This document shows positions 14,470-31,921 of a stretch of DNA of 43,868 nt, one piece after another; the stretch's first letter is position 1, and each line of letters opens with the position of its first letter. The notes beneath the pieces were generated by a model. That model was not told the origin of the DNA, made no database searches, and saw only the letters and a program-made list of their open reading frames with translations. A program made the position numbers and the translations under genes. The DNA is from Myxococcales bacterium (GTDB lineage: Bacteria > Myxococcota_A > Polyangia > Polyangiales > Polyangiaceae). The stretch is taken from the NCBI GenBank assembly GCA_025354825.1, contig JANXMC010000844.1, positions 1-43,868 of the forward strand. The letters are read 5' to 3'.

Positions 14470-16206
14470 CTAGTCCCGCCCGCGCGCACGCGCGGCATTC
14501 GTGAGGGCGATATTTCGATCGATGAGCGCCATGAGCTGCTCGCCCGTGACGCCGAGGCGTGCGGCAGCATATCCGGCGAGGGACGTCGTCGCGACGCCCG
14601 GCGTGAACTGGTAGGTAGGCTTTTGATCCGCCGCGAGCTCGACTTGCAAAAAGCGCAAATCGTGAATCTTCCGTTCGCGCTCGAGGCGCGCGGCGAATGC
14701 CAAAAAGTGCGTCGTGATGAACGCCTGGGGCGCGAGCCTCGTAAGCATTCGGATCACAAGCTCGAAGATCTCTTCGCCTTCGGAGGGGTTGGTCCCCGAG
14801 CACAGCTCGTCGAGAATCACCATCGCGCCAGGCGGCACGCGCTCGAACAGCTCGCGTATCCGAACGAGCTCCATCCCCAAGCGCCCCTCGGCCTGGTCGG
14901 CTTTCGTCTCTTGAATGAGCGAGACGACGAGCCCCGGCGTAAGGGCGAGGGCGCCTGCCCGCGCCGGGATGAAGACGCCCGACTGGGCAAGGAGCTGCGT
15001 GAGCCCGAGGGATTGTAAAAGTCGCGTTTTTCCGCCGGAATTGGGCCCCGTGATGAGAACCGTCGACGCGATGCGATCGGTCATGACGTCGCACGGAACA
15101 GCTTTGATCCCGTGGGCGACGAGGAGCGGATTGAAAAGCCCCGACAGCGTGCGCGCCGCTTCGGGCGTGACGAGATCGGGCAGGCACGTGGCGAAGCCAG
15201 CGGCCTTCGCCATATCGCGAAAGCCCAGCGCGCCCAGGTAAAATTCGATATCGCCGAAGAGCTGCACGAACCGAACGAGCTCGCCCGCGAGCCCTTCGAA
15301 CACGGCGTCGATGAGGCGCGCCATGATCTCGCCGTCGCTGAATTTGTAGCCGCGAAAAAACAGCTCGATTTTACTCAACCACCGGCGCCACGACGACGTG
15401 ACGAACGGGTTCTTCTCGTCTTCACGAATCTCGGCGATTTCGAAACCACGAATGTGGCCGTCGGCACCGATACAGATTTTCAAGTTGAGCGTCGCGAGGC
15501 GCTCGTCGTACCTGAGGAGATCGCCAAGCGCCTTGTACGGCTCGCTCGCCTGCACACGGCGGCCAAAGCCCGAGAGGCGCGAAAGGCCACTATGCGCAAA
15601 GGCGAACTGCCCGGCCATCGCGTCGATAATCTCTTTGGCCAAAAGCAGAATATCGAGCTGACGGCGGTTCGCGTCCCACTTCCCCGCGCCCGTTGCGCCT
15701 TCGAGAAGCGAGCGAAAGCGGCAGAGGGCGACGTAGAGCTGCTCGAGGCTATTTCGAAGGGGCGGCGACGACGCGAGCTCGGCGACGATGGCGCGCCGAT
15801 GGTGCACCACGGCCGGATCGGAAGGCGGGCTCGCGAGGAGCTTCACGAGGTGTGCGGTCGATGGTGGAATCTCGTTGCCGCCGATTTGAATCTTGAAACA
15901 GAGCGACGCGAAGCTCTGTAGAAAGAGGTCGTTCACGAAGGCCGACGGCTCCCATGTCGACGGCGCGAAGGTCGCCGAGTCGAGGGCGTCACCCACGAGC
16001 CCGCCCGAGACCCCGCTCGCGAAGGCGAGGGAGATCGCGAGGCGCAGCGGCTCGACGCTCACGCGGCTCATCGCCTGCGGGTGGAGTAAATCGGGAATGG
16101 TCGCCGCCTCCACACTCGCCGGTTCGCCCGGCGTGCCGTCCTCGCGGGGGCTCGGCGTGCGCGGGAGGGGTGCGGGGCGGGGGCTCGAAAGCTCTTGCAC
16201 GTACAT
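14470..16206 (-). CDS. MutS-family ATPase lacking mismatch-recognition domains
   Basis: 578 residues; canonical MutS is about 850. The C-terminal third is the MutS domain V ABC-type ATPase: Walker A TGPNSGGKT (near residues 384-392), a Q-loop region, VILDELCSGTNPSEGEE (signature and Walker B), and FITTHFLAFA (switch His). The N-terminal 380 residues are helical and resemble the core/lever region only; I see no mismatch-binding domain with its Phe-x-Glu motif and no Smr nuclease tail. Such proteins (MutS6/7-like groups) are of unsettled function, probably DNA-binding ATPases. It heads a two-gene minus-strand unit and is divergent from the six-gene operon at 16528. Confidence 0.9.
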   Translation of the reverse strand: MYVQELSSPRPAPLPRTPSPREDGTPGEPASVEAATIPDLLHPQAMSRVSVEPLRLAISLAFASGVSGGLVGDALDSATFAPSTWEPSAFVNDLFLQSFASLCFKIQIGGNEIPPSTAHLVKLLASPPSDPAVVHHRRAIVAELASSPPLRNSLEQLYVALCRFRSLLEGATGAGKWDANRRQLDILLLAKEIIDAMAGQFAFAHSGLSRLSGFGRRVQASEPYKALGDLLRYDERLATLNLKICIGADGHIRGFEIAEIREDEKNPFVTSSWRRWLSKIELFFRGYKFSDGEIMARLIDAVFEGLAGELVRFVQLFGDIEFYLGALGFRDMAKAAGFATCLPDLVTPEAARTLSGLFNPLLVAHGIKAVPCDVMTDRIASTVLITGPNSGGKTRLLQSLGLTQLLAQSGVFIPARAGALALTPGLVVSLIQETKADQAEGRLGMELVRIRELFERVPPGAMVILDELCSGTNPSEGEEIFELVIRMLTRLAPQAFITTHFLAFAARLERERKIHDLRFLQVELAADQKPTYQFTPGVATTSLAGYAAARLGVTGEQLMALIDRNIALTNAARARGRD

Positions 16207-16527: not shown

Positions 16528-19227
16528 GTGATCGCGCGCGCCTTTCTCGCCGCTGTACTTTTGCTCGCCGCTCCGCCGACGAAGGGGGCGGCCAATGCGG
16601 CCCCTACCAAGTCGGGAGCCCTTGCGACCAAGCCCTCCGCCGCGAAGCCCGCCGCGCCGACGAAGGCGCCGCCGCCGAAAGCGCCTGTCCTCGCGCCAAA
16701 GCCGAGCACGCCTGCAAAGCCGTCGCCCGTCGTCGCGAAGCCTGCGCCGCCGCCGGTGAAGGCCGCCCCGGCGCTTCCACACGGGGCGCCCGTCGTGTCG
16801 CCGCCGCCGAACGCGCCAGTGCCAGAGCCCGCGGCATCGTCGGAGGCTTCCGCCGAGCCGGTCGCGCCGCCTGCGCCCGCGGCGTCCGCTGCACCCGTGG
16901 CATCGAAGCCGGCCGCCCCCGCGGCACGCGCGGCGTCCACGCCCACGAGCTCGGCGGTCGCGGCCGCTGCGCCTGATAAGCCCGCGTCGTTGGCAATCGA
17001 TCTCATTGCCAAAGATCGCGACCGCGCCTGGTTCGCGACAGGGATCGAGCAGGTGATCGGCAACGAGTTCCTTCGATTCCACGCCGTCGAGGCGACGCCT
17101 AAGCTCGATTCGTCGGCGTCGTGTCCAACTCGCGAAGCGCGCTGTCTCGTCGAGGCCTATCGCAAAGCGGGCGTCGAGATCGTCGTCACCGGTGTCGTGA
17201 CCGAGCCCGGCGCCCTCGCCTACCAGGTCTACGAAACGTGGACGGGAGCCAAGGCCTTCGAAGGGGTCCTCGGCACGAGCGGCGTGACGACGTCGATGTT
17301 CGAGCGCGAGGTCGGCCAGCTCGTACGCCCCGTCGTCCAACGCGGGGGGCTTCTCGACGGGCGGCCGTCACGCGCGGCCGCGGAGATCACGGACGGGTCG
17401 TCGACCCCACGAGCGGGCGCGGTGGGCGCTCCGAAGGCGGCCGCGAAGCACTGGTATGTCCTACCGCTCGTCGTTGTCGGCACCGTCGTCCTGGTCGCGT
17501 TTCCGATTCTCCTCGCCCTGCTTCTGGTAGGCGGGCGGCAGCTGGCGCGACGCGAAACTCCGCGGTCGTGGAAGTGGTCGGGCCTCCTCGTGGCGTGCGC
17601 GTCGGGTCTCCCCATTCTGGTGAACGCCGTCGACGTCGATGCGGCCGTAGCGAAGGTCGCTCTTCGCGCGCCGTCGTTCGTCGCATTCGCGCCTCCCATC
17701 GTCGCGGGCGCGCTCTGGGCCGCGTTTGGGCTGCTTTTGGGGCTGTGGCTCTTCGCGCCCGTTCGAGGGTTCGAGCGTGTTCGTCACGATGCTCTCTGGC
17801 CGCTTCTTCGCGCGTGGCTCCTCCTCACACTTCTCCGTTCGGTCGCCCTCCTCGCCGTCTACGGTCCGCTCCTCGCGCTCTCGCTTCGCGCATCCCACGA
17901 CGCCGCCCTCTCCGAACGGACCATCGTCGCCTTCGTCGTCCCCGCCGTGGGTCTACTTCTCTGTTTCGTGATCCTTTCGTTCGTCGACAACCTCACACTT
18001 TATCTCGACGCGAAGCTCGCCGTCTGGCCGCCAACAGAACGCAACCCGTGGCATGCGACCCTTCGTAGATACGTGCAGGGGTACGTGCGGCGCGGCGTCG
18101 TCGAGGTCGACGAAGCGCTCCTCGCGCGAACGCTCTTCCTTCCCGGCACGCGCGGCGACGTCGTGAGCTACGGCGGCGGCTTCGCGCGACCGCGCATCGT
18201 CGTTGGCGAAAAGCCCCTCGAGGCCGCGCTGGGAGAGCTCCCCGACGACGAAGAGCTCGAAGAGCGAAAGGTAAATCCGGAGGAGCTCCCCTTCGGCCTC
18301 GTGGTGCCGTTCCGGCGCGCCAACGACGACCTCGCCGAGCTCGCGCGGTCCGAACGCCTTCGCACGGACGTCACCCGAAGACCGGCCCGCGGCCGTGCCC
18401 CGGTGCCGCGCCTCCTGGGCGAGAACGTGACACTCCTCGGGTGGCTCATGCCGCAGGCGAAGTCCGAAGGGAGCGGTGGCGGATTGCCCCTCATTGCGAA
18501 TACCGAAGAAGACTTCGGCGTCGTGAAACGCCTTCTGGCCGAGCACTATTCGGCATTCCAAGGCGCCCTCGACGACGACGAGGTCGACGACTCCGACCCC
18601 ACGCAAAAAGACTTCCTCTTCGGCCCGCTCCTTTTGGAGCTGGGCGTGATTGCGCGCCACGACACGCTCGTCGCGACGTTTCGGTTGTGCCTCGAGGCGA
18701 TGTGGCCAGGCAACGGCATTTTCTCCCGCCTGTTCCGTCTTCCCATCGCGCTGTACGACCGCCTTCTCGCCTCGCCCGGGCAGCGCGTCGCCGACGCCTA
18801 CGCGGCGTTGAACAGCGCGCTCCACCCGCTGATTCAGTACCTCTGTTTCATGGGCGGGGCAGACACGCGTCTTTTCACCGCGCGCGCGAACTTGCCAATG
18901 CTCGTCGCAACCTCGCGTGGAATGGTGGCCGAGCTCGAAGCCGTGTCCCCCACGGTCGCCTCCGAGAGCCCTGTCCTCGCCAACGCCCGGGCACGCGCCC
19001 GTGACGAAGCACGCGACCGCGTCGAATGGGTCGCGCGCAACTTCCACGGATCGATCTCCCCGACCCGCGTTCGTTGGCTGCGTGCTCTCGGCTCGGTGAT
19101 GATCGCGGCCGCCGTCTGCATCGCCCTGGGGCGCCAGGTCTCGGACGCCATCGCCTACCACCCGAGCTATGTCGATCGAATGAAGTCTCAGCGTACCGTG
19201 CCTAGTGAAGGAGACAGCTCGCGATGA
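16528..19227 (+). CDS. Large polytopic membrane protein heading the six-gene operon
   Basis: 899 residues from GTG at 16528. A signal/anchor segment (residues 2-16) is followed by a Pro/Ala/Lys-rich spacer to about 150, long enough to cross a periplasmic gap. Residues about 155-285 form a compact alpha/beta domain with two Cys (SCPTREARC) and VEIVVTGVVTEPG. Hydrophobic helices follow at about 310-340, 350-372, 388-413, 427-450 and 465-487, and one more at about 855-875. The roughly 360 residues between are soluble, acidic in places and without known motifs. Topology suggests an outer N-terminal domain and a large cytoplasmic loop. Its stop overlaps the next ATG (ATGA). I recognise no family. 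Confidence 0.8.
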   Translation: MIARAFLAAVLLLAAPPTKGAANAAPTKSGALATKPSAAKPAAPTKAPPPKAPVLAPKPSTPAKPSPVVAKPAPPPVKAAPALPHGAPVVSPPPNAPVPEPAASSEASAEPVAPPAPAASAAPVASKPAAPAARAASTPTSSAVAAAAPDKPASLAIDLIAKDRDRAWFATGIEQVIGNEFLRFHAVEATPKLDSSASCPTREARCLVEAYRKAGVEIVVTGVVTEPGALAYQVYETWTGAKAFEGVLGTSGVTTSMFEREVGQLVRPVVQRGGLLDGRPSRAAAEITDGSSTPRAGAVGAPKAAAKHWYVLPLVVVGTVVLVAFPILLALLLVGGRQLARRETPRSWKWSGLLVACASGLPILVNAVDVDAAVAKVALRAPSFVAFAPPIVAGALWAAFGLLLGLWLFAPVRGFERVRHDALWPLLRAWLLLTLLRSVALLAVYGPLLALSLRASHDAALSERTIVAFVVPAVGLLLCFVILSFVDNLTLYLDAKLAVWPPTERNPWHATLRRYVQGYVRRGVVEVDEALLARTLFLPGTRGDVVSYGGGFARPRIVVGEKPLEAALGELPDDEELEERKVNPEELPFGLVVPFRRANDDLAELARSERLRTDVTRRPARGRAPVPRLLGENVTLLGWLMPQAKSEGSGGGLPLIANTEEDFGVVKRLLAEHYSAFQGALDDDEVDDSDPTQKDFLFGPLLLELGVIARHDTLVATFRLCLEAMWPGNGIFSRLFRLPIALYDRLLASPGQRVADAYAALNSALHPLIQYLCFMGGADTRLFTARANLPMLVATSRGMVAELEAVSPTVASESPVLANARARARDEARDRVEWVARNFHGSISPTRVRWLRALGSVMIAAAVCIALGRQVSDAIAYHPSYVDRMKSQRTVPSEGDSSR

Positions 19228-20039
19228 GTGAAACGGAGCCGGAGCGGCAGTCGGAGTTCTTCGAAGTTCTCAACAAGAGCAGGCTCGCCGTCAGCAAGAA
19301 ATCGGCTGGCGCCGGCGTCGTTGGGCTCGTCGGATTCTTCTTGTTGCTCGGCGTTTCAGCCGTCTTTTTCGTGACCGAGAACTTTCTCATCGCGCTCTTC
19401 GGCGCGTCGCTCTCGCTCTTGATTTACGCGACGGGCGCCGAGATCGGAAAGCTTCTCCTGTCGACGATTACGATGTTCTTCTCGTCCCGCCACCTCACAC
19501 CGAAGGCCGCGCAGGTCCAAGAGACGCTCGCCGCCCTCGAAGAGGTGCTCACGCTCAGGAGAAACCGCGAAGGCGAAGTTCGCGTCGGCCCCGTCGAGCC
19601 GGGGATGAAGGTTCGCCTCCCCGACAACGCCCTCGTGCGCGACCTCGTGACGGTGCAAGAGCGAAAGAAGACATACGACTACGCCGAATACGTCGTCCAC
19701 TCCTATTACGTCGAGTGCCAAGAGCTCTACGACCACGCAGGCGCCCACCTCGACTTCGTGTCGGGCTCGATGCCGCTCTTCGGTCTCATGGGGACCGTGC
19801 TCGGCCTCATTAGTATGTTCGACAGCCTCGGTAGCGTCGCCACGGTCGAAGCGATCGCCCCGCAGCTTGCGCTTGCGCTGAAGTGCACGCTGTACGGCGC
19901 GCTTCTTTCGTCGCTGTACAAAATCGCGGCGACGCGCTTCGAGCAGCGCTTAAAGGGGCTCGATTACGACTTCGACACCTTGTGCCGCGCCCTTAAGGTC
20001 ATCTTCGAGAACCAGGCCGTGATCGAGGTGCAGAAGTGA
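19224..20039 (+). CDS. MotA/TolQ/ExbB-like proton-channel subunit
   Basis: 271 residues. Two N-terminal hydrophobic helices (about 28-50 and 54-76), a cytoplasmic segment of about 100 residues, then the conserved pair: DFVSGSMPLFGLMGTVLGLI (about 178-197) and APQLALALKCTLYGALLSSL (about 211-230), followed by a short charged tail. The GLMGTVLGLI block is the hallmark of the MotA/TolQ/ExbB family, whose pentamers surround two MotB/TolR/ExbD helices and convert ion flow into motion or force. Its partner is the next gene. Four-base overlaps at both ends (ATGA, GTGA) indicate coupled translation. It lacks the long C-terminal coiled tail of ZorA. Confidence 0.88.
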   Translation: MSETEPERQSEFFEVLNKSRLAVSKKSAGAGVVGLVGFFLLLGVSAVFFVTENFLIALFGASLSLLIYATGAEIGKLLLSTITMFFSSRHLTPKAAQVQETLAALEEVLTLRRNREGEVRVGPVEPGMKVRLPDNALVRDLVTVQERKKTYDYAEYVVHSYYVECQELYDHAGAHLDFVSGSMPLFGLMGTVLGLISMFDSLGSVATVEAIAPQLALALKCTLYGALLSSLYKIAATRFEQRLKGLDYDFDTLCRALKVIFENQAVIEVQK

Positions 20040-20662
20040 GTCGCGCCCGCGTCACGCGCCAGCGTAAGGCGTTCGACGTTTGGCAGATCGTCTACATCGA
20101 CTTGATGACCAACGTGATGATCTTCTTCGTCGTACTGTGGGCCGTTCAGAGCTCGCCGAAGAAGAGCGGCATTAGCGATACGTTTGGCACCGAGACTGTG
20201 AAGACCGTGAACTTACCGGGCGACGTTCTCTTCTCGGTGGGCAAGAGCGACATTTCCGACAACGGCCATGAAGTGTTCAAAAAACTCTTCGCGGACAGCG
20301 AAACGGTCCTGAACTTCGACACCGGCGGTCTCACGAAACGGATGCTCATCATCCACGGCCACACCGACAACGACGGCCAGAAAGACAAGAACCTCGATTT
20401 AGCGTTTCAACGAGCGCTCTCCACCTACAAAGAGATTGCGAAGTACGGCGCCAACGTCCCCGACCACGTCGTGATCTGCTCCCACGCCGACAACACACCC
20501 GCGCAAGACGTGCCGGCGATGGGCGGCAACCTGTCGCCCGCCGAGCAGGCCGCGGTCGCCGAGGCCAAGGCGAAAAACCGGCGCATCGTCATCGAGGACA
20601 AGCTCGTGAGCCGGGCCACCTCCGGCGTATCGAGCGCGACGAGCACGGTGGGAGCGCCGTGA
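20036..20662 (+). CDS. MotB-like stator subunit with OmpA peptidoglycan-binding domain
   Basis: 208 residues from GTG at 20036. A basic N-terminus and WQIVYIDLMTNVMIFFVVLW give the single MotB-type helix with Asp22 in the position of the proton-accepting Asp of MotB (compare YADFMT). Only about 25 residues separate the helix from an OmpA-like domain: VLFSVGKSDIS, then GHTDN (Asp111) and the FQRA Arg126 that in OmpA-family domains hold diaminopimelate, and the closing KNRRIVIE. So the protein should be anchored in the inner membrane and bind peptidoglycan. The linker and plug are shorter than in flagellar MotB. It pairs with the preceding MotA-like gene. Confidence 0.88.
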   Translation: MSRARVTRQRKAFDVWQIVYIDLMTNVMIFFVVLWAVQSSPKKSGISDTFGTETVKTVNLPGDVLFSVGKSDISDNGHEVFKKLFADSETVLNFDTGGLTKRMLIIHGHTDNDGQKDKNLDLAFQRALSTYKEIAKYGANVPDHVVICSHADNTPAQDVPAMGGNLSPAEQAAVAEAKAKNRRIVIEDKLVSRATSGVSSATSTVGAP

Positions 20663-22263
20663 TCGGCGCTCGTTCGCTCTCGAGCCTCGCGCTCCTCGCG
20701 TTCGCGCTCATCTCGGCGCTCGCGTTGGGGAGCTTTGCGCCCGAGCGGATGCACACGCGCGGCTTCGGCACCTATCTCGCGATTGGGATGTTCGGCATCG
20801 TCGTGGGAACGCTCATGTTCCGCTTTTTCCGTTTGGGAGAGCGGAGCCGCCACTATGTGAGATGGGCCACCGAGCGCTCGGGCTGGGACGTCACCGAAGG
20901 GCACTTCGTCGGCGGCGACACGCGGCGTTTCGTTCTCGGCGAGAGCCGTGAGAACGAAGCGTTCGACTTGCCTTCGTGGCTCCGTCTCGCCATGAGCATC
21001 ACAGTCACGTCGGTCTTGGCGCTCGCAGTCATCGATGGGCGTGCCCTCGCACGCCTAAGCCGCGCCTCGGGCGATGTGACGTCGATGGCTTCGACCTACT
21101 GCCCCGACGAGCTTCCGCCGCCTCCACCCGCGCGGGTGGTGAACGAGCCGGGGTGTGAGCTCGTGCGGCGCGCCTACGCCCTCGGCTACACGAAAACGTT
21201 GGGCGACTGTGCTCCCAAAACGGAGCACACGGCACAGAGCGCACGCCCTATTTGTACACGCAGGCAGCGCGACGAGCCGTGGCTCCACTATTCGTACCGC
21301 CTCTTCACGTCGTCGTTGGGAGGCGTCGTCGGCGCGACGAAGGCGAGCTATTTCACCAAAGCGCGCGACGACTTTCAAGCCCGTGCAAAGCATATCGGCG
21401 CTCTACGCAGCAGCGAAATCGAGATGCTCACGTCGTCGCCCCACGCGTCGCACCATCTCTATACGAACCTGCCCGACCCCAAGAACGGCGCCTTCGAAGA
21501 GACGACGTGCACAAGCCGCTACGCGCGCCTCCCCCACCGCGCCACCCCGCCAAAGGGGCCTCTGCAAGCGAGCCTGGTGTTGGAGCAGGTCGTCGCGCAG
21601 CTGCTCTTCGAGGGGACATACGACGCGTCTGCTGGGCACTGCCGCGAATACCATGTTCATTGGGGAGCGCCCGCCGATGCGTGCAAGCAAATCGCCGCGA
21701 ATCCCGCCGAGTTTCTCAAGAGAGACGGCGCGCTGAACGACGTGCGGCGCACGCTCGATCGCTTCCGCGTCGCCAATGAGCTCACGGCGCTCGGCGAGCC
21801 GAAGCCGACCCTCGAGCCGCCCGCCTTCGTGAGCTTTCAGTGCTACATCGAAGGCGATGCGTCGCCGCGCGCGCGCACGCCGTTCACCCTCGACGGCCAG
21901 GCGTTCACCGCCGACGAGCTTCATGTGAGCCCGTCGCCCGAAGGCGCCGAGCTGTACATCGACAGGTACGACGCCCTCGCGCGCCTGTTCGCGAAGACGT
22001 TTCACTATGGGTATTTGATGAGCGAAGCTGGCGCCGCCGAGCTCGCGGGCGGTGGCGCCACCAAAGAGCTCGAAGCGTCGCTCGCGGGGGCCGACTACTT
22101 GCTCACGCGGTTGTACGAGCTCGAGAGCATCGATATCTATTTGGATCCCGGTTGGCTCGCCTACCGGCCCGATCTCCTCGAGGTGTACCCCTACGAGCGG
22201 CATCTGAAGAACTTCATCGAAGTCTTTCGGCGCGACTACCGGCGCGAACGAGGTCGCCTATGA
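20659..22263 (+). CDS. Three-helix membrane protein with Cys-rich outer region
   Basis: 534 residues from GTG at 20659. Hydrophobic helices at about 6-26, 36-57 and 107-127. Then about 400 residues of soluble sequence with eight cysteines (STYCPD, PGCEL, GDCAP, PICTR, TTCTS, GHCREY, DACKQ, FQCY), consistent with disulfides in the periplasm. The C-terminal part has several aromatic/acidic segments such as IDIYLDPGWLAYRPDL. No family recognised. It begins inside the stop of the OmpA-domain gene and ends in ATGA with the next gene, so it is part of the same machine or pathway. The outer region could contact the stator's wall-binding domain (inference). Confidence 0.78.
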   Translation: MIGARSLSSLALLAFALISALALGSFAPERMHTRGFGTYLAIGMFGIVVGTLMFRFFRLGERSRHYVRWATERSGWDVTEGHFVGGDTRRFVLGESRENEAFDLPSWLRLAMSITVTSVLALAVIDGRALARLSRASGDVTSMASTYCPDELPPPPPARVVNEPGCELVRRAYALGYTKTLGDCAPKTEHTAQSARPICTRRQRDEPWLHYSYRLFTSSLGGVVGATKASYFTKARDDFQARAKHIGALRSSEIEMLTSSPHASHHLYTNLPDPKNGAFEETTCTSRYARLPHRATPPKGPLQASLVLEQVVAQLLFEGTYDASAGHCREYHVHWGAPADACKQIAANPAEFLKRDGALNDVRRTLDRFRVANELTALGEPKPTLEPPAFVSFQCYIEGDASPRARTPFTLDGQAFTADELHVSPSPEGAELYIDRYDALARLFAKTFHYGYLMSEAGAAELAGGGATKELEASLAGADYLLTRLYELESIDIYLDPGWLAYRPDLLEVYPYERHLKNFIEVFRRDYRRERGRL

Positions 22264-22862
22264 ACCGCTCGCTCGCGCGGCTCGCCATCGGCGCGGCATT
22301 CGTTGCAAGCTCTGCGGCGCTCGCGGACGATGCCGCGAGACCGTATGCGCGCGAGCCGCGCGTCGCCCATATTCGCGCGGCGCTCACGGCCATGGCGGCG
22401 GCGCCGCCGGAAACCCTTCGCAAAGCCTACGAGCACGCCCGCGGGGTGGAGCGCGGCGCCTGCTCGGCCGGCTCCGTTCGCCTGCGCGTCGAGTGCCTCC
22501 TCGTCGCGAGCAAAAAGTACTGCAGCGAGACGGCCACGGCGTCGCACGACTGCGCGCTCTACATGGACGTCATCGTGAGCAACGTGCTCGCCGACGAGTT
22601 TTTAATCCCTCGCGAAAAGCGCTACCAAATCGTTCGTACCAATGCCGACTACCGACCGGCCTTGGCCCGTGAGCTTCGGCGCATTCAGGGGACCATGGCC
22701 GTCGACTTTCGCCTCCACGGCAAGGGGACCGGCGGCGACGACGACGCCGAGACCATGGCGAGCAACATCGACCGCTACTGCCGCGGCGCGGCCGACGAGA
22801 GCAACGTGCCCTACCAAATTTGCGTATCGTCTCTCGCCTTTTTCATCAAAGGACCATCGTGA
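22260..22862 (+). CDS. Small exported Cys-rich protein of the operon
   Basis: 200 residues. A Sec signal peptide (AIGAAFVASSAALA-DD) is followed by a helical domain with six cysteines: GACSAG, VECLL, KYCSE, HDCAL, RYCRG and YQICVS, probably three disulfides. It shares the Cys-rich, periplasmic character of the preceding protein and may bind it. The overlaps with both neighbours (ATGA before, GTGA after) place it firmly in the operon. No family recognised. Confidence 0.78.
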   Translation: MNRSLARLAIGAAFVASSAALADDAARPYAREPRVAHIRAALTAMAAAPPETLRKAYEHARGVERGACSAGSVRLRVECLLVASKKYCSETATASHDCALYMDVIVSNVLADEFLIPREKRYQIVRTNADYRPALARELRRIQGTMAVDFRLHGKGTGGDDDAETMASNIDRYCRGAADESNVPYQICVSSLAFFIKGPS

Positions 22863-24046
22863 GCAGTCGCGAGCTTCTCAAGTTTCTCGAGGCCGAGACG
22901 AAGAACCTCAAACAGGCGGGGCTCGTTCGCCCCGAGCTCGTGTTGAGCGGACCACCAGGCCCCGTCGTCCACGTCGATGGGCGCGCCGTGGTGAGCTTCA
23001 CGTCGAGCGACTACCTCGGCCTCGCAACGCACGAAGCTTCGAAGAAAGCCGCGATCGCCGCGATCGAAACGTGGGGAGTCGGCGTCGCATCGACGCGCGT
23101 CGCGGCGGGGACGCTGTCGCTCCATGCCGAGCTCGAGACCGCCGTCGCCGCCCTCGTCGGCACGGAGGACGCGCTGGTGTACCCCAGCGGCCACCACGCG
23201 AGCACGGGGCTGTTCGAATCGCTAGTAGGTGATCGCGATTACGTCTTTTGCGACGACATGATGCGCCCGAGCCTCGCCGACGGGATTCGCCTCTCGCGCG
23301 CCCGCGCCTACGCGTACCGCAACGACGACATGGAGCACCTCGAAGATCGCCTAAAGCGCTCGCGCGCGGCACGCTTTCGAGTCATCGCGACGGACGGCGT
23401 TTTCCCGGCAACGGGGAAGATTGCCAATCTCGAAGCGATCTACGCATTGGCCTCGAAGTACCGCGCGATGGTCGTCGTCGACGACAGCCAAGGCGTGGGC
23501 ATTCTCGGCGGGGGCAAAGGCGCCCACGGCGGCCTCACGCTCAAAGACGGCATCGACGTCGTCACCGGCTCCTTCGGCGCGGCTCTCGGCGGCGGCGCGG
23601 GCGGCTTCGTCGCAGGGAAAAGTACAGTCATTGCGTGGCTTCGGCAGACGTCGCGCGCACACCTCGCGTCGACCGCGCTTTCGCCCGCGGCATCGGCCGT
23701 GGCGCGCAGCTGCATCGAACTCGTCCAGCGCGAGCCCGGCCTCCGCCGCGCTCTCGACGCGAACCTGGAGACGTTCAAGGCGGCGATGGCGAAGGACGCA
23801 GGGCTCCTCGTCGACATCACCCACCCGGCGATCTCGGTTCTCGTGCGCAACGCCGTGTCGGCCCAGCGCCTCACGGACTACCTCTTTCGAAACGACATCT
23901 TCGTCATCGGCTACTGCCACCCCGTCGTCCCCGAGGGGGAGGCGCGCATTTCGATCCGAATCACGGCAAGGCACACGCAGGAGCAGCTCGAACGCGCAGC
24001 GAAGGCCATCGGCGATGGCATGAAGGAGCTACAAATTCAGCTCTAA
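22859..24046 (+). CDS. Alpha-oxoamine-synthase (KBL-like) protein lacking the PLP lysine
   Basis: 395 residues from GTG at 22859, with AAAGGA upstream. It aligns along its length with 2-amino-3-ketobutyrate CoA ligase and related alpha-oxoamine synthases: FTSSDYLGLATH, a RVAAGTLSLHAELE block, TDGVFPATGKIANL, VVDDSQGVGILG, then GSFGAALGGGAGGF, WLRQTSR, and the C-terminal PVVPEGEARISIR. In the family GTLGKALGG carries the lysine that binds PLP; here the codon at 23579-23581 is GCG, Ala241. The His of DDSH is also replaced by Gln (211). It is therefore probably a non-catalytic or altered-chemistry homologue, as LCB1 is in serine palmitoyltransferase. No complete partner enzyme is encoded nearby. 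It is the last gene of the operon. Confidence 0.88.
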   Translation: MSSRELLKFLEAETKNLKQAGLVRPELVLSGPPGPVVHVDGRAVVSFTSSDYLGLATHEASKKAAIAAIETWGVGVASTRVAAGTLSLHAELETAVAALVGTEDALVYPSGHHASTGLFESLVGDRDYVFCDDMMRPSLADGIRLSRARAYAYRNDDMEHLEDRLKRSRAARFRVIATDGVFPATGKIANLEAIYALASKYRAMVVVDDSQGVGILGGGKGAHGGLTLKDGIDVVTGSFGAALGGGAGGFVAGKSTVIAWLRQTSRAHLASTALSPAASAVARSCIELVQREPGLRRALDANLETFKAAMAKDAGLLVDITHPAISVLVRNAVSAQRLTDYLFRNDIFVIGYCHPVVPEGEARISIRITARHTQEQLERAAKAIGDGMKELQIQL

Positions 24047-25305: not shown

Positions 25306-25430
25306 GGTGAAGAGTCTACGGCCGCGAGCGCTCGTGAGAGCGCGCGGAAGATGGTCACCCCATCCGCGGGCCGTGCTATTTTTCCGGAGCCTTATCGCGA
25401 ACGCAACACCTACACGTGAGGTTCGAATCG

Positions 25431-25781
25431 ATGCGAAGCGCTTGGATTGCAACGGGCGCAGCCCTCTTCGTCAGCGGCTGCGGCGCAAGCTTCCCCACGC
25501 CATCGGAGCGGCTCGCACAGGCCGAGTCGGCGTCGCGCGGAGCAAAAGAGCTTGGCGCCGAGAGCGAGCCGAATGCGTCGCTCCATTTGAAGATGGCGAA
25601 CGATCAGATCAAACAGGCGAAAGACCTAATGGAGCGCGGCGACAACAAGCGCGCCGACGCGCTCCTCGTTCGTGCCCAGTCCGACGGCGAGCTCGCGCTC
25701 CAAATGGCCAAAGCGGCAAAGACGCGCGCAGAGGCAGACGAGCTGATTGCAAAGGTGAAGTCGATGCGAGGTGGCAAATGA
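25431..25781 (+). CDS. DUF4398-like small lipoprotein
   Basis: 116 residues from ATG at 25431, preceded by GAGG nine bases upstream. Lipobox ALFVSGCGA (Cys near 18). The mature part is a helical hairpin with the pattern SLHLKMANDQIKQAKDLME and ADALLVRAQSDGELALQMA, typical of DUF4398 proteins, which commonly precede OmpA-domain lipoproteins. Its stop overlaps the ATG of the OmpA gene (ATGA), as is usual for this pair. Probably an outer-membrane lipoprotein that works with the next product. Confidence 0.85.
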   Translation: MRSAWIATGAALFVSGCGASFPTPSERLAQAESASRGAKELGAESEPNASLHLKMANDQIKQAKDLMERGDNKRADALLVRAQSDGELALQMAKAAKTRAEADELIAKVKSMRGGK

Positions 25782-26626
25782 GCGCGCTTGTCTCTCGTTC
25801 GGTGCCCTTCGCGCTCGTCGCGTCGACGTTTCTGGCGGCCTGCGGAGCGACGCTCCCGCCGAAGGAGTTGGTCGACGCGCGAGCAACCTACGACCGCGTC
25901 TCGAAGGGGCCGGCCGCGCAAAACAAGCCCGACGAGCTTCTCACGGCGAAGCAGCAGCTCGACAAGGCCGACGCGCTTTTCGCCGACAAGGGCGACGCGC
26001 CCGAGACCGTCGACGCCGCCTACGTCGCCTCGCGAAAAGCCGAGCTCGCCGAAGTGTCCGCGCAGCTGGTCGTCGCGCAAAAAGAGAAAGAAGCCGCCAC
26101 GAAAGAGGCCGCCACGCTCCAAGGCGAGTCGCTCGACCAAGTACGGGGCGAGCTGGCGCACACCAAGCACGCGCTGCAGAACGAGCGCGCAGCCCGGGAA
26201 GATGCCGAGAAGCGAGCGGCCGCCGCCATGGCGGATCTTCAGCGGATCGCCGCGGTTAAAAAAGACGATCGCGGAATGGTCATCACGCTGTCGGGCGCCG
26301 TGCTCTTCAAGACCGACAAATACGAGCTGCTGCCGGCGGCAATGGTGCAGCTCAATCAGGTGGCCGAGGCGCTCACGCGCAACAACCCCGACGCAAAGGT
26401 GACCGTCGAAGGTCATACCGATTCGCAGGGGAGCGAAGACCACAACAAAGAGCTGTCGCTAAAGCGCGCGCAGTCCGTGGCCGACTACCTGGTGTCGCGC
26501 GGCATCGCGAAAGACCGAGTGAGCAGCGTAGGCATCGGCTCGGGGCGCCCGATCTCTGACAACAAGACGACCGAGGGGCGCGCGCAGAACCGTCGGGTCG
26601 AGATCATCGTCGACAATCCTAAATAA
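25778..26626 (+). CDS. OmpA-family peptidoglycan-binding lipoprotein
   Basis: 282 residues. Lipobox LVASTFLAAC (Cys near 22). A helical DUF4398-like region (about 25-100) and a coiled-coil segment (about 100-165, VAQKEKEAATKEAATLQ...) precede the OmpA C-terminal domain: VLFKTDKYELLPAAM, VEGHTDSQGSEDHNKELSLKRAQSV and the closing AQNRRVEIIV. The Asp of GHTDS and Arg of KRAQ that bind diaminopimelate are present. It should tether the outer membrane to the cell wall. It is a second peptidoglycan-binding protein within 6 kb of the MotB-like one, but it is separated by an oppositely oriented gene. Confidence 0.92.
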   Translation: MSALVSRSVPFALVASTFLAACGATLPPKELVDARATYDRVSKGPAAQNKPDELLTAKQQLDKADALFADKGDAPETVDAAYVASRKAELAEVSAQLVVAQKEKEAATKEAATLQGESLDQVRGELAHTKHALQNERAAREDAEKRAAAAMADLQRIAAVKKDDRGMVITLSGAVLFKTDKYELLPAAMVQLNQVAEALTRNNPDAKVTVEGHTDSQGSEDHNKELSLKRAQSVADYLVSRGIAKDRVSSVGIGSGRPISDNKTTEGRAQNRRVEIIVDNPK

Positions 26627-26686: not shown

Positions 26687-29600
26687 ATGATGCCTCTTCG
26701 CTTACCTGCTTCTAACCCGCCCGCTCCGCCCGGCTCGGAGATGGTGGCGACGGCCGCGGCCGAGCCGAGCGACGACGAGCTCACGCGCCTCCGCGCTCTG
26801 CTCATCGACGGTCGCACGCTCGATGTCTTCGCAGCGTGCTCCGCCTACGCGCCGTTCGAGGCGTGGCGCTCGCACGATGGCGCGAGCCTCGCCGCAAGTC
26901 TTGTTGGCGATCTCGGCGCCCCGAAACGAGCCCTCGCGCTCCGTCTTGCGGCGGTGCGGCGAGGCGCGCCGTCCGCGGCGCGCGACGTCTTACGGGTCAC
27001 GCTCCGCTTCGTCTTCCGCGGCCCGGTCGACGCGCTTGGCGCGATCCGCGAGGCGCGCGCGTCGGCCACGTACGAAGGCGCGACCGACGACGACCGCGCA
27101 AATCTCTTCGAGCTCGAAGGGCTCGCGTTGGGCGCGCTGCGCGACTTCGATGCCGCGCGGCGTGCCCTCACGCTCGCCGAGCCGTTCGAGTCGAAGCCCC
27201 AGGCGCTCTCCTTCGCGCGGGCTCGCATAGCTCTCGCTCAAGATCGCTACGACGAGGCGCTCGCCGAAGCGCGACGGGCGCACGAGGCGCATCGAAAGCA
27301 TCCGGGCGCCGCGCTTCTCCTGGCGCATCTCTACGAGATACGAGGCGCGACGGACGACGCGCTGTCGCTCCTCCGCGCGACGGCGGAGACGACGCAATCG
27401 GCCGATGTCGCCGGTGCCCTCGCGACGCTCCTCGAAGACCGAAAACTTTGGGACGAACGTGCCTTTTGGGTCGAGCAGTGGGCAGCGCGCTCGCCGCTCC
27501 TCGAAGACCCCCATCGCCTAACCGGAATGCGCGCCGATGCCGCCTACGATCGCGGCGACCACAAGAGCGCACTCGCGCTCGCCCGCACCGTTCCGGCCGG
27601 TTTCCACGCGCGGGTCGCCGAGCATCTCGCGGCGGCCGAGGCCGGCGCCCCGGCAAAGCGCGTGATGCTCGACGTCCCCTTCGTTCGCCAGCACCACATG
27701 ACGTGCGCGCCGGCAACGCTTTCGGCCATTGCGACGTATTGGGGTATGCGCGCCGAGCACCTCGAAGTGGCCAATGCGATTTGCTACGACGGCACGCCGA
27801 GCCATAGCGAACGAACGTGGGCGGAGACGAATGGGTTCGCCGTTCGCGGTTTCACGGCAACGTGGGACTCGGTCCGCGCGCTGCTCGATCGCGGCGTGCC
27901 GATGACGGTGGTGACGGCGACGGCCGCGAGCGCGCACTTGCAGGCGATCGTCGGCTACGACGAGCACCGCGGCACGCTTTTTCTGCGAGATCCGTTCATC
28001 CCACGCACGATCGAAGCGCTCGCCGTGGAGTGGCTCGCGACGTGGCAGGCGACGGGCCCTCTCGCGATGGCGATGGCACCCGAGAGCGAGCGGTCGCGGC
28101 TCGACGGCGTGGTGCTCCCCGATGCGCGTCTGCACGATCTCGCCTACGCGACCAACGCGGCGCTCGCGCGCCACGACCGGGTTGCGGGAGTTGCGGCGCG
28201 CGATGCGCTCGTCGCAGAGGGCCCCGACCACAGGCTCGCGATCGCGGCGCGGCGAGCGGTCGCGGCATACGATCAAGACGTCGAGGGTGTGCTCGCCTGC
28301 GCGCAGGCCCTCGCCGCCCGTTGGCCCGATTTTTCGGCAGCCCGCATCGATGCCCAGTGGTGCCTGCGCGCCGTGCGCCCACGTCGCGACGCGCTCGCGG
28401 CGTCCGAAGCGCTCTACGCGGCCCACCGCACCGAGTCGCTGTACGCCGAGGAGCTCGCGCGCGATCTCGCGACCGACGCGCGAGAGCATCCGCGCGCCTC
28501 ACGCCTGTTGCGAAAGGCGATGGCGGCGCGGCCCGACCGCCACGGACCCGTGCGTCAGCTCGCCGACGTCCGTTGGTCGCAGCGCGCGTTCGACGACGCG
28601 CTGAGGCTGCACCGCATCGCCGCATGCCTCGGGCAGGCCGACGAAGACGCGGCATGGGGCTACTTCGAGGCGGCTCGCGCGCTGGGCCGCACGGACGAAG
28701 CCGTGGCCCACCTCCGCGGCCGCCACGAAGCGCTCGGACCGCGAAATGCGCAGCCGTCGATGACGCTCTCGAAGGCGCTCGATGCGCTCGGCCAGGCGGA
28801 CGAAGGGTTCCGCGTGCTCGATGATGCCCTCGCGGCCCACCCGGCCGACGGCGTGCTCCTTCTGTTCGTCGCCGAAGCGCGCGCATCGTTCGGCGATGTC
28901 GACGGGGGGCGGGCCCTCGTCGCGAGAGCGCGCCCCTTTGCAAAAGAGGCGGCGTGGCTTCACGCAGCGGCCCATATCGCGCTTCACGCGGGCGACGCGA
29001 AAGAGCGCGAGGGGCTTCTCGCGCGTCTCATCGCCCTCGAGCCGCTCAACGTGAAGGCCCACTACGCCTATGCAACGTCGCTTTCGTCGACCGCGGGCGT
29101 GGCGGCGGCGCGTGCCCATCTCGAGGCGGCGTGGACGAAAGCGCCGCACCATCGCGGCCTCGCGCAGGCGTGCCTGCTGGCGGTCCGAGCCGCGGGCCCA
29201 AGAGAGCTCGAGGCGACGGCGCGCAAAGCGCTCGACCGCGACGTCGCCGACGCGTCGGCCCACCTGGCGCTCGCGCGCGCGCTCGTGGCAGCGGGGCGCA
29301 TCGAGGAGGCCCGCGCCTCGATCGACAGCGCAGCACTTCTCGAGCCCCACAGCGCCGCGGTCGATCTCGCTCGATTCGCGGTGCTCCATCGCGCGGGCGA
29401 CGCGGCGGGGGCACGCGCGGCGCTCTTTCGCGCGCTCGCCCTCGAGCCCGACAGGCCCGGACTCATTGCCGAGCTCCTCGCCGCTCACGGCAACGGCGCC
29501 GAGCGCGACGCGGCTCTCGAGGGCGCATTCCGCGTGGTGGCGCGCGCGAGCGTAACGGGCGATGGGATCGCGGCCTACGTGGCGTGCGCCGAGCAGTCTC

Positions 29601-31921
29601 GCGACCCCAAGGCGCTCCTCGCGACGGTCGAACAGCTCCGCGCCGAGCGCCCGGCGATCGCGGCGACGTGGCTCTGCGCCGTGCGTCAGCGCACACGCTG
29701 CGGCGACGACGACGGCGCGAAAGCGCTCGCCGACGACGCCTGCGCGCGCTTCCCGCTCGTGGCCAATGTCTTCGCCGCCCGCGCCCACGCGTATTCCGCG
29801 GCGGGGGGTGATGTCGAAGCGCTTCTCGCGCTCGAGCGGGCCGTGGAGCTCGCGCTCCTCGATGAAGGGCACGTCCTCGCCCTCGCGAACGCGCTTCGTC
29901 ACGCAGGGCTCGAGGCGCGCGCGAGGGAGACGCTCACGCGCGCCATCGGGCGTGTCCCGTCGAGCGCTGCCCTTCGGCGTGAGCTCGCCGAGCTCGAGTG
30001 GGCGTCGGGTCACGAGGCCGATGCGCGCCTCGCGCTCGAAGGGGCGCTCGCGCTCTCGCCCGACGAGAACGCGAGCTACGTCCTTCTCGACAGGATGGAT
30101 TCGTCGCACTCGGGCGTGGCGCGTGATCGCGAGCGCGATCCGACGCTGGCGCGACTCGAGGCGCTCGCACAGGAGCGCCCGTGGAGCGCAGATCTCTTCG
30201 TCACCCTCGCGCGGACGCACGCGCGGCGAAGCGACGGCGCGGCCGCTATCGTCGCGCTCAAACGTGCCCTCGACGCCGACCCCATGATGCTCGAAGCGCA
30301 CGAGCTTCACGCGACGTTCCTGGCAATCGTCGGCCGCCTCGACGAAGCCCTCGAGGCGAGCTCGCCCGCCGCGCTGGCCTTCGACATGCCCCGCGAGCTG
30401 CGCGGGCGACGCGCATGGGTGCTCGCACGAATGGGCAATCGCGCCGAAGCGATCGCGGTCATGCGCACGCTCGTGTCCGAGCATCCGGGCTACCTCTGGG
30501 GCGCTCAAGAGCTCGCGCGGTGGCTGCTCGAAGACGGGTCGCCCATCGAAGCGCTGGGCGTGTTGAAAGAGTCGGCCGCAACCCGTCCCGACAGCGCCGC
30601 GGCCCACGTGCAGCTGGCGTTCGGGCTCCTCGAGGTGGGCGATCGCGTAGGAGCGAAGAGCGCGTTCATTCGCGCCGCATCGCTCGATAGGCGCGACGTG
30701 ACGGCCCACGACGGGCTCTTCGATCTCGCGCTCGACGACGGCGACGTGGCCGCTGCGCGCGACGCGATCGAGGCAATTCGTGCGCGGTCGGGGGAAGACA
30801 GCGCGCTCGCCACAGTCCACCAGGGGCGCCTCGCGGCAAGTATGGGCGACGGCCCCGGCGCGATTGCGGCGCTCCGCCGCGCCGCGCTCGACGCAAACGT
30901 CCCCATCGCAATCTTCGACGGCCTCCGGCGCGACTGCATCACGGCGGGGTTCGGCGTCCTCGCCGACGAGGCGTTCGCCGAGCTGCTCTTCGAGCCCAAA
31001 GCGATCGCCGAAGTCGGTGTCTACTGGGCCGCCACGCGCGTAGCCGTCGGCGAGCTGCCGCGCATCGGCACGGCGATCTCGGCGATGGGGCCTCGCTCGA
31101 GCGAAAATCCCACCCTGCCCGCCGTCGCCGCCGCGGCGTTCCAGTGGCTCGGCCACCTCCGCGCGAGCGACGCTCGCGAGCGGTACCGCGCGGCCTACGT
31201 GCTGTCGAAGAACCTCGGCCCCGTCGATGATGCTCTTTGGGGCGAAGTCGGTGCGGCGTTCGCGGCCTCCGGCGCGAGTGAGGACACGGTGCGCTGGATG
31301 CGCGACTGGCGCACGCGCCCGAACGCGTCGGCGCAGGCCCTCAGCCACCTCGCCCACGCGCTTCGCGATTCGTCACGCGCCGACCTCGCCCTCGAGGTCA
31401 CCCTGCACGGCGCCGCCATCGAGCCCGCGGGCAACGAGGTGAACCCGCTGCGAACGTGGGCCGCCTACGAGCTGGCGATGCGCGGCCGCCCCGACGAAGC
31501 GGCCCCGTGGCTCGATCGCACGGGCAATCTCACGGCGCAGCCGAACCTGCTCACACTTTTCTATCTCTCGCGCGCAGTGGTGGTCGCAAGCTCGCCCGCG
31601 CTCTCGCGATTCGTCGCCTTTCAGCGGGCAAGCACGCTGCTCGCCTTGGCGAAGAACAGCTCCTCCCAAGCGTTCCTCGACGAAGCGCACGCGCGCGCCA
31701 CCTACCGCATCGGCCTCGAGCTCGGGATCTTCCTCGCCCCCTTCTTCCGCTTTCGCGAGCGCCTCACCACCATCCTCGTGACCCTCGTGGTCGTCGCGCT
31801 CGTCGCGTTCAACGCCGCAGCCTTCGGCGCCGTGCTCGAAAAGATGGGATACCCGATCATCATGGTTTCGATATTTGCCATTCGTTGGGCCATCTCCCGA
31901 AAAACGAAGGGGGCGTCGTGA
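26687..31921 (+). CDS. Giant TPR protein with embedded C39-like cysteine peptidase domain
   Basis: 1744 residues from ATG at 26687 (26690 is an equivalent ATG). No signal peptide. Residues about 80-320 and 470-1660 are TPR-type helical repeats (patterns such as AHLALARALVAAGRIEEAR and GAAIVALKRALDADP). Between them, residues about 325-460 form a C39-like peptidase domain: DVPFVRQHHMTCAPATLSAIA gives Cys340, ASAHLQAIVGYD gives His417 and FLRDPF gives Asp435, a full Cys-His-Asp triad. A hydrophobic C-terminal region (about 1693-1735) offers one or two membrane helices. C39 domains cleave leader peptides after Gly-Gly. Here the domain is not part of an ABC exporter, so the substrate is unknown. 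The stop overlaps the next GTG. Confidence 0.88.
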   Translation: MMPLRLPASNPPAPPGSEMVATAAAEPSDDELTRLRALLIDGRTLDVFAACSAYAPFEAWRSHDGASLAASLVGDLGAPKRALALRLAAVRRGAPSAARDVLRVTLRFVFRGPVDALGAIREARASATYEGATDDDRANLFELEGLALGALRDFDAARRALTLAEPFESKPQALSFARARIALAQDRYDEALAEARRAHEAHRKHPGAALLLAHLYEIRGATDDALSLLRATAETTQSADVAGALATLLEDRKLWDERAFWVEQWAARSPLLEDPHRLTGMRADAAYDRGDHKSALALARTVPAGFHARVAEHLAAAEAGAPAKRVMLDVPFVRQHHMTCAPATLSAIATYWGMRAEHLEVANAICYDGTPSHSERTWAETNGFAVRGFTATWDSVRALLDRGVPMTVVTATAASAHLQAIVGYDEHRGTLFLRDPFIPRTIEALAVEWLATWQATGPLAMAMAPESERSRLDGVVLPDARLHDLAYATNAALARHDRVAGVAARDALVAEGPDHRLAIAARRAVAAYDQDVEGVLACAQALAARWPDFSAARIDAQWCLRAVRPRRDALAASEALYAAHRTESLYAEELARDLATDAREHPRASRLLRKAMAARPDRHGPVRQLADVRWSQRAFDDALRLHRIAACLGQADEDAAWGYFEAARALGRTDEAVAHLRGRHEALGPRNAQPSMTLSKALDALGQADEGFRVLDDALAAHPADGVLLLFVAEARASFGDVDGGRALVARARPFAKEAAWLHAAAHIALHAGDAKEREGLLARLIALEPLNVKAHYAYATSLSSTAGVAAARAHLEAAWTKAPHHRGLAQACLLAVRAAGPRELEATARKALDRDVADASAHLALARALVAAGRIEEARASIDSAALLEPHSAAVDLARFAVLHRAGDAAGARAALFRALALEPDRPGLIAELLAAHGNGAERDAALEGAFRVVARASVTGDGIAAYVACAEQSRDPKALLATVEQLRAERPAIAATWLCAVRQRTRCGDDDGAKALADDACARFPLVANVFAARAHAYSAAGGDVEALLALERAVELALLDEGHVLALANALRHAGLEARARETLTRAIGRVPSSAALRRELAELEWASGHEADARLALEGALALSPDENASYVLLDRMDSSHSGVARDRERDPTLARLEALAQERPWSADLFVTLARTHARRSDGAAAIVALKRALDADPMMLEAHELHATFLAIVGRLDEALEASSPAALAFDMPRELRGRRAWVLARMGNRAEAIAVMRTLVSEHPGYLWGAQELARWLLEDGSPIEALGVLKESAATRPDSAAAHVQLAFGLLEVGDRVGAKSAFIRAASLDRRDVTAHDGLFDLALDDGDVAAARDAIEAIRARSGEDSALATVHQGRLAASMGDGPGAIAALRRAALDANVPIAIFDGLRRDCITAGFGVLADEAFAELLFEPKAIAEVGVYWAATRVAVGELPRIGTAISAMGPRSSENPTLPAVAAAAFQWLGHLRASDARERYRAAYVLSKNLGPVDDALWGEVGAAFAASGASEDTVRWMRDWRTRPNASAQALSHLAHALRDSSRADLALEVTLHGAAIEPAGNEVNPLRTWAAYELAMRGRPDEAAPWLDRTGNLTAQPNLLTLFYLSRAVVVASSPALSRFVAFQRASTLLALAKNSSSQAFLDEAHARATYRIGLELGIFLAPFFRFRERLTTILVTLVVVALVAFNAAAFGAVLEKMGYPIIMVSIFAIRWAISRKTKGAS

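Follow-up and report, generated by a model that had tools for sequence, protein, structure and literature searches.

The window analyzed here (a whole stretch of 43,868 nucleotides, contig JANXMC010000844.1 of a Myxococcales bacterium) carries on its forward strand, at 16528-24046, six consecutive genes, termed A to F, that bring together a motor-type subunit pair, three envelope proteins and a relative of a metabolic enzyme. Gene A (16528..19227, GTG start, 899 amino acids) encodes a polytopic membrane protein; gene B (19224..20039, ATG start, 271 amino acids), a channel of the MotA/TolQ/ExbB family; gene C (20036..20662, GTG start, 208 amino acids), a protein with a MotB-like transmembrane (TM) segment and an OmpA-type domain; gene D (20659..22263, GTG start, 534 amino acids), a protein with three predicted TM segments and eight cysteines; gene E (22260..22862, ATG start, 200 amino acids), a probably secreted periplasmic protein with six cysteines; and gene F (22859..24046, GTG start, 395 amino acids), a KBL-like relative of alpha-oxoamine synthases. 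All five junctions are 4-bp ATGA/GTGA overlaps, and both the open reading frames and the overlaps were re-found at the positions reported by a first-pass annotation of this DNA, which had described the products as a stator-like pair, including a MotB-like wall-binding subunit, accompanied by two Cys-rich envelope proteins. These assignments are borne out by the family matches and conserved residues presented below. Proteins A, D and E have no above-cutoff match in Pfam, NCBIfam, PADLOC or PHROGs, and their profiles (both parts of A, D and E) yielded no meaningful, or in the case of D significant, match in PDB. The association of the six genes goes beyond chance, because six other genomes contain the set, for the most part in the same order as well, with protein identities of 19-73%.

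Protein B exceeds the cutoff of the Pfam MotA_ExbB family (PF01618; 55.7 vs. 22.9 bits), finds TolQ and MotA as its best PDB matches and shows a topology of two TM segments at each end and, between the pairs, a cytoplasmic loop of ~100 residues, with the fourth hydrophobic segment scoring under the hydropathy threshold applied. Its third TM segment contains P184 and a G187xxG190xxxG194 motif, resembling the TM3 glycine zipper of PomA, with T191 immediately after G190 (P184, G187, G190, T191 and G194 are invariant among the seven orthologues); in TM4, residue 221 is followed by an equally invariant T222-LYGA. The invariant T191 and T222 align with PomA T158 and T186, and the three PomA positions T158/T185/T186 are occupied by T/T/T in five orthologues and by T/C/T in the window and in L006. 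Since the first two of these PomA residues are replaced by Ala in two proton-driven stators (PMC10374538), sodium use by the B-C motor is possible.

Protein C is above the Pfam MotB_plug (PF13677) cutoff (30.7 vs. 24 bits) and slightly under that of Pfam OmpA (24.9 vs. 27.2 bits). It is composed of a single MotB-like TM segment with D22, a very short linker (TM-to-OmpA-domain spacing of ~20-25 residues) and an OmpA-type peptidoglycan-binding domain. D22 (codon 20099..20101, + strand) occupies the position of the ion-carrying Asp of MotB, PomB and ZorB, and H109-T110-D111 (codons 20360..20368, + strand) match H186-T187-D188 of ZorB. The peptidoglycan site of ZorB I, studied by mutagenesis, includes positions H186, T187, D188, L199 and R203 (PMC11890865). 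All five are conserved in C as H109, T110, D111, L122 and R126, which, together with D22, are invariant in seven of seven orthologues. The ZorB1 profile likewise matches every C orthologue (52.2 bits in the window, higher than any MotB model gives). Two features of 5:2 motors are therefore present, a B protein of the MotA_ExbB family and a C protein with an invariant TM Asp encoded by an adjoining gene (the B-C overlap of 4 bp is kept in all seven genomes), and the conserved residues suggest that the B-C pair is ion-driven.

The resemblance of C to ZorB raises the main alternative, a Zorya-like anti-phage defense, in which a wall-sensing ZorAB-like motor would signal damage to the envelope, with A, F or a different cytoplasmic component serving as the effector. 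A fit of C to ZorB1 profiles in seven of seven orthologues and a weak fit of B to ZorA2 in four of seven (best E 5.8e-4) are in line with this alternative, whereas ZorC, ZorD, ZorE and other PADLOC matches were not found in the six proteins, defense genes are absent from the window neighbors examined, and large periplasmic parts are a feature of A, D and E, three of the five proteins of the core, which would be unusual for a DNA-targeting defense. Taken together with the distribution and gene trees described below, we regard a defense role as unlikely.

Protein A starts with a signal-peptide-like region and an Ala/Pro/Lys-rich linker, followed by a periplasmic domain; TM segments are predicted at six places (residues 314-332, 352-370, 391-409, 431-449, 465-483 and 850-868), the last two of which enclose a large cytoplasmic domain; its orthologues in the six other genomes are 21-43% identical. 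The periplasmic domain (16981..17394, + strand), with two invariant cysteines (C199 and C206 of A), is likely to be a distant relative of the TolB N-terminal domain. An hhalign alignment of the two gave a probability of 87.7% (P 3.4e-6), compared with 0.1-0.6% for proteins C, E and F used as controls, and Pfam TolB_N was seen below cutoff in two of the seven orthologues (E 0.05 in the window, 0.013 in L006). This domain is also the sole usable part (pLDDT ~80, predicted local distance difference test) of an AlphaFold2 model of A. In the cytoplasmic domain, a YGGG..RPRIVV motif might recall M48 peptidases, but A has neither HExxH nor a Pfam match, and the idea was set aside.

The two remaining core proteins are rich in cysteines. 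D combines three predicted TM segments with a large periplasmic domain, and all eight of its cysteines lie C-terminal to these segments and are invariant across the seven orthologues, as are the six cysteines of E. Including the pair in A, a total of 16 invariant cysteines fits oxidized, presumably disulfide-bonded periplasmic domains. E of the three Oligoflexales-type relatives (L007, L015 and L016) has two extra cysteines at matching places (155/162 to 158/165), which would fit one further disulfide. The D-E overlap of 4 bp is kept in six of the seven genomes, and in G417 (L015 7400-10117) E is fused to the N-terminus of A; this fusion places E beside the periplasmic side of A and supports a contact between the two proteins.

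The operon unit was found in a total of seven genomes of uncultured bacteria, the window's and six further ones, which belong to two distant groups. The first two relatives came from a single-sequence search with B in the species genome collection: L006 (JADLHZ010000147, 'Deltaproteobacteria bacterium SJ496'), with all six genes in window order, and L007 (JABSRF010000120, 'Oligoflexales bacterium DT_79'), with the order B-C-D-E-A. Single-sequence searches with D and B in the window's phylum returned the window's genome only, and the D search in the species genome collection returned nothing. Profiles, used once the first two relatives were known, detected B in three of 195 genomes of L006's phylum (L006's own, G557 and G564), D in three of 58 genomes of L007's phylum (L007's own, G417 and G416) and D in the window's genome alone among 379 of its phylum. 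Thus, rather than occurring in one genome only, an outcome that the first-pass annotation had named as fatal to its proposal, the gene set is present in six further genomes: A to F in the same order in L006, G557 (L029) and G564 (L030), and A to E without F in the three Oligoflexales-type genomes L007, G417 (L015) and G416 (L016), with a different order in two of them (in L015, B-C-D, with E and A fused). That the same five genes stay together despite a changed order speaks more strongly for a functional set than an unchanged order would. A weak D match in G481 was rejected as a repetitive protein with no other operon homologue beside it, and weak A matches in G057 and G242 were rejected since profiles detected none of the six genes in the fetched stretches. 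IMG/VR yielded no relative with the B and C profiles, and among plasmids B gave just two partial matches. At least three of the assemblies (that of the window, with 859 contigs, and those of L006 and L007) are of draft or metagenome origin, which makes the absence of a gene from the rest of a genome uncertain.

Co-conservation and phylogeny were among the checks proposed along with the initial annotation. By maximum likelihood, A, B, C and E all give one and the same branching of the seven taxa, ((window,L006),(L029,L030),((L007,L015),L016)), and the D tree departs from it at a single node with support 70. Flanking genes were compared by eye: a MutS_V gene upstream and a CE2-type esterase gene downstream in the window, neither of which adjoins the L006 operon. 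Congruent trees in combination with differing flanks indicate that the set moves as a module, whether inherited or transferred. The core set, inherited as one unit by at least seven bacteria, therefore argues for a real but uncharacterized machine. The rare and patchy spread (1/379, 3/195 and 3/58 genomes) would suit a defense system, whereas the deep congruence of the gene trees shows no shuffling and speaks against one. The hosts, of Deltaproteobacteria and Oligoflexales type, are also near groups carrying the Agl/Glt machinery (PMC3169522), and the multi-protein architecture extends from the inner membrane to the periplasm, both of which would accommodate an energizer of surface motility or secretion, comparable to the Agl/Glt or GldLM machines of bacteria that glide or prey on others. 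We consider this improbable, given that AglQ and AglS are of the ExbD/TolR type (PF02472) as opposed to the MotB/OmpA type of C, that A, D, E and F match no named gliding or secretion family, and that the operon is missing from nearly all searched genomes of the window's phylum.

Protein F belongs to the aminotransferase class I/II family, with glycine C-acetyltransferase (KBL) as its best NCBIfam match. It aligns with KBL over the full length (NCBIfam PRK06939, E 9.9e-112) and stays under the KBL equivalog cutoffs (373.6 vs. 460 and 336.4 vs. 493 bits). At the position of the KBL lysine that binds pyridoxal phosphate (PLP), the window protein has Ala241 (codon gcg, 23579..23581, + strand; TGSFGAALGG vs. 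TGTLGKALGG), and the F proteins of the window, L006, G557 and G564 have A, H, K and D, respectively. In the same order, the ring-stacking His of KBL is represented by R, R, H and H, the H210 position by Q, H, L and L, and the S185 position by Pro in all four; F of G557 keeps the lysine along with H136 and D207. Wherever present, F follows the A-E set; it is missing from the fetched locus stretches of G416 and G417, to which the search was confined, and the L007 genome, also without F, has an ordinary KBL with the lysine beside an apparent threonine dehydrogenase gene. The description of F as a pseudoenzyme in the first-pass annotation accordingly holds for the window protein but not as a defining trait of the system, since F occurs in four of seven genomes and one of the four retains the PLP lysine. 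F is instead an accessory of one clade, outside the core, whose catalytic activity is being lost or already gone. The non-catalytic subunit LCB1 of eukaryotic serine palmitoyltransferase is a known case in which the PLP lysine has disappeared. F parallels such LCB1-type subunits, and it shares with KBL and other alpha-oxoamine synthases the full-length alignment but differs from them in its sub-cutoff score, in changed active-site residues in four of four proteins and in its motor-operon setting.

Derivation of F from an alpha-oxoamine synthase, its position after A-E and the residues retained in G557 would also agree with a role in envelope chemistry, where the product of F or of an active ancestor, an aminoketone or lipid precursor, would be moved or attached by the membrane proteins; that a canonical KBL was found in neither G000 nor G384 points the same way. 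Nevertheless, loss of the lysine in three of four F proteins by three differing replacements, the uniform Pro at S185 and three loci that keep A-E without F make such a role very improbable, the least credible of the alternatives. The possibility that F pairs with a resident KBL was set aside, no canonical KBL having turned up in these same two genomes. The four F proteins represent natural states of one active site, with the lysine kept once, which makes a change from enzyme to non-enzyme directly testable. Two further observations concern this gene. In L006's genome (L011 1453-4071, - strand), an alpha-oxoamine synthase domain with the lysine present is, as read from the sequence, fused to a polyketide-synthase-like protein. 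In G564, F is followed with a 4-bp overlap by a seventh gene (L030 4592-6157, - strand) for an ABC1/UbiB-type atypical kinase with a ribosomal L7/L12 C-terminal-like domain; in the window and in L006, no such gene was seen downstream of F.

Overall, we lean, with modest confidence, toward an ion-driven motor of the MotAB/TolQR/ZorAB (5:2) kind, encoded by the operon and seated in the inner membrane, that drives an envelope assembly of A, D and E, with F as an adaptor. We favor it because B and C fall into channel and axle families, their ion-flow and peptidoglycan-site residues are invariant, and A to E co-occur in seven genomes with near-identical trees. In the proposed mechanism, B would form a pentameric channel wheel and C a dimeric axle, with D22 carrying the ion; the OmpA domain of C, held close to the membrane on its very short linker, would bind peptidoglycan within reach, in keeping with the proposal made for ZorB. 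With C held by the wall, the passage of ions would make B rotate against it, and the motion would pass to A, with its large cytoplasmic and TolB_N-like periplasmic domains, and via A to disulfide-bonded E and D, whereby the machine would perform work at the envelope or sense its mechanical state. F would be a cytoplasmic KBL-derived adaptor or regulator added in one clade, catalysis having been lost in most members. As to the purpose of such a machine, we would rank envelope maintenance or mechanics first, Zorya-like defense second, and motility or secretion third.

Several points weigh against this interpretation. The sequences themselves establish the gene set, its co-inheritance and the conserved residues of the channel, the wall-binding site and the cysteines; the 5:2 stoichiometry, ion conduction, rotation, complex formation and the role of F are inferred from them, and the link of the motor to A, D and E draws on operon structure, co-inheritance and one fusion. 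The AlphaFold2 models are poor (mean pLDDT 47.7 for A and 45.6 for D), and a Foldseek search with the A model gave no match at E <= 0.001. A flagellum-type plug and long linker were not seen in C, and its reach to the wall is therefore uncertain.

Among the neighbors, a gene for a 578-amino-acid protein with MutS domain V (14473-16206, - strand) lies upstream of the operon and is divergent from it. About 1.4 kb after the operon, two adjacent genes (25416-26626) each encode a DUF4398 protein, of which the second also passes the cutoff for an OmpA domain; they are possibly another wall-binding envelope pair. They are followed at 26687-31921 by a gene whose 1744-amino-acid product contains numerous TPR repeats as well as a C39-like peptidase domain.

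The known families of ion-driven rotary envelope motors are few (flagellar, Ton, Tol, Gld/Por, Agl and Zorya). Compared with these, the B-C pair is a motor of known kind, and the partner set A, D, E and F is not described in the libraries and literature searched: literature searches, outside subscription papers and preprints, gave no description of the A-F gene set, in agreement with the first-pass view that it belongs to no named system. The accompanying statement that the operon is not Zorya stands for the gene set but not for subunit ancestry, C being closest to ZorB by profile. ZorB and C have in common the TM Asp, the short linker, the OmpA-type domain and the peptidoglycan-site residues, whereas B (271 amino acids) ends ~35 residues past its last TM segment and lacks the long cytoplasmic tail of ZorA; moreover, Zorya has no counterparts of A, D, E and F, and its effectors ZorC, ZorD and ZorE were not found among A-F (PADLOC; A, D, E and F unmatched). 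Similarly, exclusion of Tol-Pal is correct in that TolA, TolB beta-propeller and Pal genes were not found among A-F (Pfam/NCBIfam) and B remains far from the TolQ equivalog cutoff (33.4 vs. 403 bits), but it overlooks a Tol-like element, the TolB_N-like domain of A. A TolQ-family channel (B) and an OmpA/Pal-type wall-binding domain (C) are shared as well; in the operon, however, the wall-binding domain is fused to the axle, as in MotB, and the TolB_N-like domain is tethered to a polytopic membrane protein.

The claim that the system is neither Ton nor flagellar was upheld. Ton (ExbBD-TonB) has an axle of the ExbD/TolR type (PF02472), whereas C combines MotB_plug and OmpA, and there is no TonB match in Pfam. 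With MotAB/PomAB, the operon shares the 2+2 TM layout of B, the MotB-type TM segment and OmpA domain of C, and the PomA TM3/TM4 glycine zipper and Thr positions; it differs in that flagellar genes are not nearby, flagellar equivalogs are far under cutoff (best PomA, 34.8 vs. 341 bits), and C is devoid of the plug and long flexible linker that characterize the B subunit of the flagellar stator class FIT (PMC12505986). AglRQS-Glt is comparable as a MotA/TolQ/ExbB channel energizing a multi-protein envelope complex in related bacteria, but its axle subunits AglQ and AglS are of the ExbD/TolR type according to the Agl/Glt gene table (PMC3169522), in contrast to C, and the Glt families are unmatched by the operon. 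We put forward, tentatively and with some doubt, a family of rotary envelope motors that has not been described before. Its wheel would be MotA/TolQ-like and its axle ZorB-like and wall-sensing, and the two would drive an inner-membrane protein that has a TolB-like periplasmic domain, together with two disulfide-rich partners, a decaying metabolic enzyme having been taken up as a subunit in one lineage. If true, a new motor family having partners of its own would broaden the known range of motor jobs, uniting in one operon features that elsewhere occur apart, namely a ZorB-like short-linker wall-binding axle, a TolB-like domain and disulfide-rich envelope partners.

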